From contig JAITAE010000146.1 in assembly GCA_031284295.1 (NCBI GenBank), positions 1-10,568 of the forward strand: a stretch of 10,568 nt of DNA, read 5' to 3'. Position numbers and translations under genes: made by a program. This document shows positions 117-8,921 of this stretch, in pieces (the stretch's first letter is position 1; each line of letters opens with the position of its first letter). Source of the stretch: Spirochaetaceae bacterium (GTDB taxonomy: Bacteria > Spirochaetota > Spirochaetia > Treponematales > Breznakiellaceae). The notes beneath the pieces are model-generated. The model made no database searches, was not told the DNA's origin, and saw nothing but the letters and a program-made list of their open reading frames with translations.

Positions 117-181
117 ATACAAAGGGGGGCGCTATTTCCATGCCGCTCACGGCACACAGGGGCCTTCCTGTCGCGCCCCCC
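117..181 (+). repeat. 58-bp palindrome-ended dispersed element, copy 1 (left arm of a perfect 65-bp inverted repeat)
   Basis: The core is 124-181, 58 bp. It begins GGGGGGCGC and ends GCGCCCCCC, a perfect 9-bp terminal inverted repeat. An internal hairpin has TGCCG (141-145) pairing with CGGCA (150-154). With the seven bases ATACAAA in front, 117-181 is the exact reverse complement of 624-688. The architecture resembles REP or MITE-type elements. Nothing in it shows coding, and I do not recognise a named family. Confidence 0.85.
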
Positions 182-202
182 CACAGGCGCCCAAACGGTG
201 GG

Positions 203-215
203 CCCCCCCCCCCCC
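203..215. repeat. C13 homopolymer tract
   Basis: Thirteen consecutive C bases are followed by A and five more C bases. The tract lies about 20 bp beyond copy 1 of the 58-bp element, much as a C14 tract lies beyond copy 4. Homopolymers of this length are prone to slippage. No gene overlaps it, so phase variation of a protein is not indicated. Confidence 0.8.
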
Positions 216-280
216 ACCCCCGGCGCCCTGCCCCACTTACCCTCCGCGCCTAGCCCCCCAAAGCAAGGGGTCAATTCCAG

Positions 281-365
281 CCTAAGCCTGGGTGCGATGC
301 CCCCCTAAGCCTGGGGGCGATCCCCCCCTAAGCCTGGGGGCGATCCCCCCCTAAGCCTGGGGGCG
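281..365. repeat. 23-bp tandem repeat, four units
   Basis: Units begin with CCTAAGCC at 281, 304, 327 and 350, an exact 23-bp period. The first unit is the most diverged and the last is truncated after GGGGGCG. Each complete unit contains GGGGG-CGAT-CCCCC, so every repeat can fold into a small GC hairpin on either strand. The array runs directly into the heptamer array that follows. Confidence 0.9.
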
Positions 366-368
366 GCA

Positions 369-515
369 GTGATTAGTGATTAGTGATTAGTGATTAGTGA
401 AGAGTGCTTAGAGCTTAGAGCTTAGAGCTTAGTGAAGAGTGAAGAGTGAAGAGTGAAGAGTGAAGAGTGAAGAGTGAAGGGTGATGAGTGATTAGTGAAG
501 GGTGAAGGGTGAAGG
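369..515. repeat. Heptanucleotide tandem array, 21 phased units
   Basis: Units start every seven bases from 369 with no insertion or deletion: GTGATTA x4, GTGAAGA, GTGCTTA, GAGCTTA x3, GTGAAGA x6, GTGAAGG, GTGATGA, GTGATTA and GTGAAGG x3. Blocks of identical units suggest slippage or unequal exchange. The junction GGCGGCAGTGAT (362-373) recurs at the start of the second array near 7539. It resembles the short tandemly repeated heptamers of other bacteria. Function is unknown. Confidence 0.93.
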
Positions 516-517
516 GT

Positions 518-544
518 TAATCCGTGTAATCCGCGTAATCTGTG
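518..544. repeat. 9-bp tandem repeat, three units
   Basis: TAATCCGTG, TAATCCGCG and TAATCTGTG follow each other exactly. They start two bases after the last heptamer. From 545 to 623 I see only non-coding, G-rich unique sequence. Confidence 0.8.
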
Positions 545-623
545 GACGATTTAGAATATCCCTTTGATGAGTAGCTGGCGGGGTGGCGATGTGGGGGGTA
601 GGGCGCAACGTAGTGCGACCGTA

Positions 624-688
624 GGGGGGCGCGACAGGAAGGCCCCTGTGTGCCGTGAGCGGCATGGAAATAGCGCCCCCCTTTGTAT
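624..688 (-). repeat. 58-bp palindrome-ended dispersed element, copy 2 (right arm of a perfect 65-bp inverted repeat)
   Basis: The core is 624-681, followed by TTTGTAT. It is identical base for base to the reverse complement of 117-181. The two arms enclose 442 bp of simple repeats. Identity over 65 bp implies recent duplication, gene conversion, or inversion by recombination between the arms. Confidence 0.9.
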
Positions 689-7532: not shown

Positions 7533-7545
7533 CCGCCCGGCGGCA

Positions 7546-7594
7546 GTGATGAGTGAAGAGTGAAGAGTGAAGAGTGAAGAGTGAAGAGTGAAGA
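7546..7594. repeat. Second heptanucleotide array, seven units
   Basis: GTGATGA is followed by six GTGAAGA units in exact 7-bp phase. About 12 degenerate bases and one more GTGAAGG (7607-7613) then lead straight into copy 3 of the 58-bp element. The left junction GGCGGCAGTGAT (7539-7550) is identical to the one before the first array at 362-373. Confidence 0.9.
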
Positions 7595-7611
7595 ATGAAA
7601 TAAGGAGTGAA

Positions 7612-7715
7612 GGGGGGCGCTATTTCCATGCCGCTCGCGGCACATAGCCGCCTACCTGTCGCGCCCCCCTGTCTACATCCCGCGCAAGCGCGGTATTCCG
7701 CCACCCCCCAATCCG
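7612..7715 (+). repeat. 58-bp palindrome-ended dispersed element, copy 3, with extension
   Basis: The core 7612-7669 keeps the 58-bp length and perfect 9-bp terminal inverted repeat. It differs from copy 1 at scattered internal positions. A 3' extension shared with copy 4 follows: TACATCCCGCGCAAGCGCGG with hairpin CCGCGC-AA-GCGCGG at 7680-7693, then a C-rich run and CCAATC. Copies 3 and 4 are in the same orientation and flank the GC-rich array. Confidence 0.85.
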
Positions 7716-7723
7716 CCGCCGGG

Positions 7724-8130
7724 CTGGGAGAAGGCTGTGGGAGCGGGCGGGCCGCCTGGCGGCTGGGAGAAGGCCGTGGGAGCGGTCAGGCCGCCTGGCT
7801 GGGAGTCTGCCGTGGGAGCGGGCCGCCGCCTGGCGGCTGGGAGAAGGCCGGGGGAGCGGGCCCCGCCGGGCGGCTGGGAGAAGGCCGTGGGAGCGGGCCG
7901 CCTGGCGGCTGGGAGAAGGCCGGTGGAGCGGGCCGCCGGGCGGCTGGGAGTCGTCCGGTGGAGCGGGCGGGCCGCCGGGCGTCTGGGAGAAGGCCGTGGG
8001 AGCGGGCCCCGCCTGGCGACTGGGAGAAGGCCGTGGGAGCGGGCCGCCGCTAGGCTGGGAGAAGGCCGTGTGAGCGGGCAGGCCGCCGCCGGGCTGGGAG
8101 AAGGCCGTGGGAGCGGGCGGGCCGCTAGGG
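7724..8130. repeat. GC-rich degenerate tandem array, 11 units of 35-39 bp
   Basis: CTGGGAG recurs at 7724, 7763, 7799, 7837, 7874, 7909, 7944, 7983, 8020, 8055 and 8094. The typical unit is CTGGGAGAAGGCCGTGGGAG followed by a variable GCGGGC/GGCCGCC stretch. Spacings are 39, 36, 38, 37, 35, 35, 39, 37, 35 and 39 bp, mostly not multiples of three. The long open frames across it therefore switch frame from unit to unit and are artefacts of G+C bias. Almost all length variation falls in the GGC/GCC part. I see no gene here. Confidence 0.9.
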
Positions 8131-8279
8131 AAACGCTGATTAATTAAAGGTGGGCGCTATTTCCATACCGTTACCGGCATATAGCCGCTACACTGTCGCG
8201 CCCCCCGGTATACATCCCGCGCAAGCGCGGTATCCCCCCCCCCCCCCAATCGGTGGCCTCATTTAATCAGTACTTCCCT
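8127..8279. mobile_element. MITE-like element with imperfect terminal inverted repeats
   Basis: The left end AGGGAAACGCTGATTAA (8127-8143) and the reverse complement of the right end, AGGGAAGTACTGATTAA (8279-8263), agree at 14 of 17 positions. All three mismatches are transitions. The 153-bp interior holds copy 4 of the 58-bp element plus its extension and no open frame. I see no clear target-site duplication. Proximity to a broken IS5-type transposase suggests possible mobilisation in trans, but this is inference. Confidence 0.55.
8149..8247 (+). repeat. 58-bp palindrome-ended dispersed element, copy 4, with extension and C14 tract
   Basis: The core 8149-8206 is again 58 bp but is the most diverged copy: its left end is GGTGGGCGC and the internal stem is partly disrupted. 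The extension repeats the copy 3 hairpin CCGCGC-AA-GCGCGG (8217-8230). A run of 14 C bases (8234-8247) follows. Confidence 0.85.
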
Positions 8280-8307
8280 TGAGGTTTGTAGCGGGGTATT
8301 AAACCAG

Positions 8308-8623
8308 ATATTGCGAAGAAAGGTTCACTTCGGCGTTGACACCAATGGCCTGCCTCACGTCATGCGGTTCGGGTAACGGCTGCGGGCGTGAGCGACTGCG
8401 GCGGAGCGGTTGAAAAACTTCGGAACTGCGATCCGAATCAGTCGAAGGTGGCAAAAGTCCTGTGCGATGGCGGTTACAGCGGGGGAAAACTTCGCCAATA
8501 CCGTGAAGGCGCTTATAGGGGCTGAAGTATCGCCGGCTGTGGAAGAACTGCGAACGTATGATGCATACCACGCTGCAAATGACGGTTCTTGCGTTTATCT
8601 CGTTACTGCTAAAAAGATATTAA
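8308..8623 (+). pseudogene. Broken IS5-family transposase remnant
   Basis: Three collinear fragments of one transposase lie in three different frames. Fragment 1 (8308-8373) reads KVHFGVDTNGLPHVMRF, a typical RNase H-fold start of an IS5-type enzyme. Fragment 2 (8373-8522) reads VTAAGVSD, then VAKVLCDGGYSGGKL, including the Asp-containing CDGGY motif. Fragment 3 (about 8519-8623) reads KYRRLWKNCER, then LAFISLLLKRY and a stop. The first switch needs a net -1 shift near 8370. The second coincides with an internal deletion that removed the segment normally holding the final catalytic Glu region. The N terminus is missing. The 11-mer TATTAAACCAG occurs at 8297-8307 and across the stop at 8618-8628, bracketing the remnant. 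It cannot encode an active transposase. Confidence 0.82.
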
Positions 8624-8921
8624 ACCAGCTCTTAGGCTATATAGACCTCCCTATTTATGGTGTATTTTCGGGCAGGACAGTCCGCCCGCTACCGTAAATC
8701 ATATACCTTTTGACTTGTTTTGTATATATTCTGACTTGGAATAGGTTCAGTATGCCGTACAAGGTATACCGCTTACCGAGGAATAGTGTCGGCCTGCCGT
8801 GCGCGAAGCCCTCTTGACGCTCCGCAACCTTTCAACTAATATACTCCGTATTAGAGCGTATTTGTAGTAGTTATGCGAAAGGCAGCTCTAAAATTTTGTT
8901 TGAAGATAGCATAAAAATAAC
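8624..8921. other. Gene-free stretch between the transposase remnant and the ridA promoter
   Basis: No credible coding region is seen. Small features include the 8-bp palindrome GGTATACC near 8766 and an inverted pair CTAATA/TATTAG near 8840-8855. Base composition shifts from GC-rich to AT-rich along this stretch, marking the left border of the ridA cassette. Confidence 0.5.

Follow-up and report, generated by a model that had tools for sequence, protein, structure and literature searches.

The window analysed here, the 10,568-bp contig C99 of a fragmented draft assembly (1.84 Mb in 318 contigs, estimated to be 58% complete), carries four copies of a palindromic element that we read, with a probability of about 0.77, as belonging to a new family of short, non-autonomous DNA repeats of the REP/RPE/MITE class, selfish in character and found in one treponeme family. 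This reading draws on the copy number of the element, its architecture, the compensatory changes in its arms, its confinement to a single family among the samples searched, its presence and absence in two genes, and the terminal ends and duplications found in the genome from which the window comes (hereafter the source genome).

Two hairpins and their copies in the window

A sequence-only reading of this DNA had claimed an exact inverted repeat near the contig start, and this proved correct: positions 117-181 are the reverse complement of 624-688 at 65/65 bases (E 3.6e-28), and the extended arms 117-190 and 615-688 are 96% complementary. It had also pointed to two further 58-bp copies, and both (7612-7669 and 8149-8206) match, over all 58 positions, a covariance model (R1) of the hairpin called A here, built from 42 copies. 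The end GGGGGGCGC is intact at 124, 624, and 7612, and reads GGTGGGCGC instead at 8149. The spacer of the inverted repeat (182-623, 442 bp), said to hold only low-complexity sequence, does contain two arrays, but it also contains the second hairpin, B, of copy 2 and a recurring flank module, recognised from contigs C193 and C32, which match 357-572 and 365-572 of a 572-base query. The features are as follows.

124-181, plus strand: hairpin A of copy 1, GGGGGGCGC...GCGCCCCCC, 77.8 bits; 117-123 lengthens the exact inverted repeat to 65 bp
182-216, plus strand: degenerate B region of copy 1, C-rich, without a supported hairpin (fold z-score +0.4)
281-365: 23-bp tandem array (CCTAAGCCTGGGGGCGATCCCCC), itself palindromic
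368-514: array of AGTGAAG-like heptamers, similar to the array at 7545-7599 beside copy 3
about 518-592 (75 bp), minus strand: flank module downstream of copy 2 B, recurring beside copies on contigs C193 and C32 (L003, L005)
593-623, minus strand: hairpin B of copy 2, of the TACGG...CCCTACCCCCC type
624-681, minus strand: hairpin A of copy 2, 77.8 bits; exact reverse complement of copy 1, with identity up to 688
7612-7669, plus strand: hairpin A of copy 3, 81.3 bits
7670-7709, plus strand: hairpin B of copy 3, with the end CCACCCCCC
8149-8206, plus strand: hairpin A of copy 4, diverged, 71.7 bits
8207-8246, plus strand: hairpin B of copy 4

Two other repeated stretches lie in the window. Between copies 3 and 4, a GC-rich tandem array of about 11 units of 35-39 bp fills 7722-8125 (404 bp), and at the contig start (1-65) lies CCGCCAGCGGGTTTAAAGTCCGC with a second, diverged copy, a module found again upstream of other copies in the source genome.

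Copy 1 lies near the start of a contig in a fragmented draft, so that 117-688 might be taken for a local inverted duplication or an assembly artefact. However, the element recurs at about 150 places, as well as in other genomes, and the two arms differ in their outer flanks; this explanation, already largely refuted by the copies elsewhere, is extremely improbable. The next-best copy in the source genome is 97% identical over 59 nt, and since that genome holds at least 149 copies, the exactness of the 65-bp pair is probably not special.

The fixed 58-bp unit proposed earlier stands in part: the unit is indeed defined, with fixed ends in copies of many genera, but the real unit is A plus B, mostly about 89-120 bp long, in which the 58-bp A is normally followed directly by B. 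In hairpin A, a conserved interior (TTTCC; CGGCA.A.AG) is framed by G6 CGC and GCG C6, while B mostly extends over 25-55 nt before a closing second C-run. The following counts were taken from 122 distinct copies, namely, 73 of the 84 model matches and 49 copies parsed by an earlier pattern; six duplicates, a sequence without B (L101), a copy cut by a contig end (L110), 20 rows missed by the parsing pattern, and partial or weak matches (L170 and the second matches in L154 and L149) were omitted. A second C-run follows A in 104 of the 122, whereas 16, several of which have other sequence inserted, show none within 90 nt and two are cut by the end of the locus. The second C-run is preceded by CTAC or CCAC, that is, GTAG or GTGG on the minus strand, in 91 of these 104 copies (34/43 in the source genome and 57/61 in relatives), with a pattern that does not force the tag. 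Just outside the unit, the base preceding hairpin A, scored in 64 relatives' copies, is either A (88%) or G (12%), and each of the two bases after the C-run of B is A in 79% of 57. Where B does not start with TGTC, it starts with TGCG, TACG, TCGC, or others.

Several copies include additional modules. A second palindrome family (GGAGTTTGC...GCAAACTCC-like) is nested inside the B hairpin of L100, L114, L156, L159, and L162. In eight copies of the source genome (L015, L036, L050, L057, L153, L154, L165, and L166), the module AGCCCGATAACGGCGCGCGAAAC or a similar one comes directly after A and replaces B, the B hairpin of L050 coming after the module. In genome G001, the interior of A is opened by the module TTATAAACTAAATTGTTGGAGTTTCGC... 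in L045, L054, L058, L060, L062, and L066, beyond which A's end and a B hairpin appear in four of them (L054, L058, L062, and L066).

Distribution among genomes and genes

The genome-wide count of copies proposed by the sequence-only reading was carried out with R1 (E 0.1 or better) and gave at least 149 matches in the 58%-complete source assembly; this number is a lower bound because 150 of 2,644 first-look candidates were scored. Across the family, with at most 28 candidates scored per genome and a threshold of E 0.001, matches were found in 27 of 195 genomes and 12 of 56 genera, including at least 28 in the source genome and 20 to 27 in each of G080, G075, G002, and G126. When 392 sampled genomes of the phylum were screened under strict filters, just two matched, both of the window's family. 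The suspicion of a REP/MITE class peculiar to this lineage agrees with a sample in which nothing outside one family matched. The exact A pattern occurs in at least 88 stretches of the GTDB genome set, and the 80 among the matches listed are all titled as Treponema or Spirochaetaceae MAGs; the same pattern gave no match in viral contigs.

Variants of the element are species-typical, as judged by eye. Three pairs of copies (L100/L128, L102/L126, and L104/L120) occupy the same site in two species and are therefore old, a sharing that also fits a retained function. Homologous genes in the source genome (L152) and in G001 (L048) each have a copy downstream, in opposite orientations, which from their arrangement suggests independent landings or an inversion. 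On contig C97 of G080 (L208/L132), which belongs to another genus, a copy and its MITE end are identical to a copy of the source genome; contamination or recent transfer may account for this identity.

Judged by crude ORF calls, a frame of at least 100 aa is overlapped by 22 of 68 copies in relatives and by 7 of 33 in the source genome. The remaining 46 and 26 overlap none, and on these calls the majority of copies are intergenic, in mixed orientations. Several of the overlapping frames are upstream open frames of genes resembling those for gyrase B, FliI, or pyruvate kinase (named by eye). A gene was called on both sides of 72 copies (50 in relatives and 22 in the source genome), in tandem for 45, convergent for 15, and divergent for 12, counts that come from simple ORF calls and are set against no genome-wide baseline. 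We rejected a reading of the element as a terminator, as these orientations are unlike those of terminators and none was found at 1-760 of the window.

Copies read in frame were recognised in two gene families, accounting for 3 of 68 relatives' copies in three congeners; overlapping frames were read by eye and Pfam was applied to the three gene products, so a few in-frame copies may have been missed. In the uracil-DNA glycosylase (UDG, PF03167) of G006 and G002, a peptide from the minus strand of the element, LGGSPQPCAGVGGR...GNSAPL, lies between an N-terminal segment and the UDG domain, and the UDG genes of four aligned congeners (G008, G009, G001, and G004) lack the element and have a different, variable linker. 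In G003, the frame of the glutamate racemase gene murI (PF01177) has 333 residues, compared with 271-291 in seven congeners without the element. Its extra segment is the same element peptide with its neighbourhood, the C-terminus beyond it is conserved, and the downstream protein is intact. The UDG and murI cases are natural presence/absence pairs. A precise empty site at the DNA level was recovered at neither gene, and the insertion point is not fixed to the base because the linkers are too diverged between species. In-frame copies are rare in databases too, given that 12 candidate public proteins, collected within the length limits of the tool, yielded four clear peptide matches (three UDG-family proteins and the G003 racemase, named as such) and one partial match.

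Arm pairing, terminal repeats, and movement

Compensatory changes, which the earlier reading had singled out as a check on the stems, are found in the outer stem of A and in B. In alignment A2 (84 matches, 79 distinct rows), which was fitted to the structure so that pair counts lean towards it, 99.4% of the cells of the outer A helix are paired; one position shows 10 switches from G-C to C-G, and a single cell is G-U. The covariation score of the whole structure (0.090) exceeds that of all 500 shuffles (0.053), a comparison that is not a probability since the rows are related and the alignment is structure-fitted. The inner structure of A was tried and is not claimed. Its helices are weakly kept (78% and 66% of cells), and family-wide no more than 65.7% of cells preserve the ATGCCG/CGGCAT inner pairing. 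In a column scan, the top-ranking pair is an outer one, 8-72, and RNAalifold, run on 42 copies, recovered just 7 pairs, all of them outer, and a covariation term of 0.06. As for B, 48 of 69 distinct sequences fold with a z-score below -1 (mean -1.9). Folded as single-stranded DNA and compared with shuffles, copies 1 and 2 of the window are strong (z -4.7 and -3.7), copy 3 is moderate (z -1.9 and -2.0 on the two strands), and copy 4 is no better than its shuffles (z -0.48).

The strength of the hairpins and their compensatory changes, the conserved interior (TTTCC, CGGCA.A.AG), and a mostly intergenic location could also be expected of a structured non-coding RNA or of an element at transcript ends, such as a terminator, an mRNA stabiliser, or an insulator. 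However, covarying helices of a structured RNA normally include G-U pairs, and here the arms covary with G-U scarce: among the 67 distinct B in the 94 copies (out of 122) that pass a B pattern, G-U makes up 8 of 627 predicted pairs (1.3%), against a mean of 9.9% and a minimum of 7.8% in shuffles, and 18 of 649 (2.8%, against 10.6% in shuffles) on the other strand. Covariation with so few G-U pairs is better explained by a DNA-level structure, or by quasi-palindromes being corrected through template switching, than by a functional RNA. Moreover, the window has no Rfam match at gathering thresholds and no terminator-like site at 1-760, convergent sites number 15 of 72, and two gene families read through the element. 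We therefore consider an RNA function improbable.

Template switching at hairpins can keep the arms of a palindrome complementary. It is conceivable, though unlikely, that the compensation in the arms reflects such quasi-palindrome correction and that the copies are inert fossils of a family. The nearly complete Watson-Crick pairing of the arms, one copy that combines arm types (L028), and the other palindromes located in B loops would suit this explanation, but it leaves unexplained the dispersal of the element, its species-typical subfamilies, and its presence or absence at orthologues, as well as the conserved interior outside the arms.

Copy 4 of the window is the cargo of a MITE spanning 8125-8281 and adjoins the remains of a likely insertion sequence.

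8125-8128: left target site of the MITE, CTAG; the right side is CTTG at 8278-8281 (3/4 match)
8129-8144, plus strand: left terminal inverted repeat, GGAAACGCTGATTAAT
8261-8277, minus strand: right terminal inverted repeat
8282-8700, plus strand: likely remnant of a DDE insertion sequence, adjoining the copy 4 MITE

The assignment of this remnant is based on a 95-base stretch of contig C5 with 92% identity to part of 8282-8700, located in a frame that matches PF01609; Pfam gave no match for the two window frames tested. Among 71 distinct copies of the source genome, a pattern search found a left end (GGGAAGCACTGATT-like) in 25, a right end in 13, and both in 9. Six of the nine have identical 4-bp flanks (CTAA, CTAG, TTAG, TTAG, CCAG, and CTAG), and three have differing ones. 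The target rule of IS5 is YTAR. Another, related-looking left end (CAATGATTC) is present in 23 of the 71, and neither left end was matched in a further 23. The source genome thus has both marks of a MITE, terminal inverted repeats and target duplication. In most other species, neither mark was seen by eye, G080 having related left ends, and since the A-B core is mostly without these ends in other species, it is not defined by the MITE. No full-length insertion sequence with the MITE ends was recovered, the genome having a DDE remnant with PF01609.

On the reading that we prefer, a selfish DNA repeat, the A-plus-B unit would multiply through an enzyme whose gene lies elsewhere and which copies or moves it in trans. 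New copies would land mostly between genes, where they are tolerated, and a copy landing in frame in a gene may persist as an insert within a protein linker. In the source genome, some copies would travel inside a MITE that has terminal repeats of about 14-16 bp, duplicates a 4-bp YTAR-like target, and presumably depends on a DDE transposase like that of the 8282-8700 remnant. That the element moves in trans, which enzymes move it, and that it serves no host function are inferred. Against this reading, no precise empty site was recovered, copies of most other species show by eye neither target duplications nor such terminal repeats, and none of 36 loci around Y1 matches links a transposase to the element.

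The tag on B suggests a different enzyme. Here, a RAYT (Y1 tyrosine transposase) would mobilise B, a REP with a GTRG tag, in single-stranded form, and A would be a partner hairpin that travels with it. GTAG or GTGG lies on the minus strand of B beside a G-run and before the hairpin in the 91 copies noted above, out of the 104 that have a second C-run, the arms vary while the tag is constant, the pairing is almost entirely Watson-Crick, and proteins that we take to be RAYT-like from their sequence features occur in 94 of 195 family genomes. The tag, however, sits next to the G-run inside a two-hairpin unit, and no A hairpin was found in the DNA around 36 Y1 matches; C6/GTRG motifs in seven of these loci gave five matches, none of them an A or B hairpin by eye. 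Co-occurrence is not significant either, with RAYT-like proteins in 17 of 27 carriers versus 77 of 168 other genomes (p 0.15) and any Y1 protein in 20 of 27 versus 89 of 168 (p 0.06), and the source genome, in which more copies were found than in any other, has no RAYT-like match at 58% completeness. These linkage tests neither support nor exclude a RAYT mechanism, since the assemblies are incomplete, and we regard such a mechanism as a minority possibility. Clusters of neighbouring genes (frames of at least 70 aa around relatives' copies and in 20 stretches of the source genome), which span at most 6 loci, showed no transposase by eye in the 25 largest. Rather doubtful is a bolder version, in which the unit would be a two-hairpin single-stranded-DNA element unlike single REPs: within its G6/C6 frame, one G-run would choose between two C-runs (end A or end B), this fold switch would be the substrate of Y1 transposition, and occasional in-frame landings would have added new linkers to housekeeping enzymes of spirochaetes.

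Comparison with known repeat families

The element, apparently a counterpart in spirochaetes to palindromic repeats of Rickettsia and enterobacteria, invites comparison with four kinds of known repeats. According to PMC10969869, Rickettsia palindromic elements (RPE) include in-frame copies in unrelated genes that are translated, and nearly half of the copies in R. conorii are coding. Like RPE, the present family is a short, dispersed palindromic repeat found in frame in protein genes (UDG and murI) and absent from aligned congeners. In contrast to the near half given for R. conorii in that text, in-frame copies are a small share here (3/68 relatives' copies, in two gene families). The present family also differs as a two-hairpin unit with G6/C6 in another phylum. 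In the scheme of PMC3733652, RPE are CGTC-tagged REPs, and CGTC repeats occur in Spirochaetes; a link between these and the present family is conceivable. The present family has no terminal CGTC tag, and TGTC starts 21 of 69 distinct B in a pattern-selected set.

GTAG REPs and REPtrons are mobilised by RAYT, again according to PMC3733652. The present family resembles GTAG REPs in being palindromic and mostly intergenic, with GTRG at the foot of B (minus strand) and variable arms, and differs from them in its unit of about 89-120 bp, its second conserved hairpin, and the lack of an A hairpin beside Y1 genes. With MITEs of IS5-like (DDE) elements, it shares the 14-16-bp terminal inverted repeats and YTAR-like 4-bp duplications of the source genome, whereas its A-B core is found in other species without MITE ends. 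The BOX elements of pneumococcus are modular repeats of different hairpin units, and the present family is likewise modular and made of different hairpin units, a likeness drawn from the general description of BOX.

Because the full feature list of no single one of these families is matched (few coding copies, no CGTC tag, no adjacent RAYT, and MITE ends limited to some genomes), we regard the repeat as a new family of a known class; searches of the open literature on such repeats returned no description of it. Some of the repeated sequence between genes in these treponeme assemblies belongs to this family, and its many related genomes, variable arms, and presence or absence at named genes make it a system in which to study movement, arm complementarity, and protein tolerance. 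Palindromic repeats inserted in proteins, described for Rickettsia, are thereby extended to spirochaetes.
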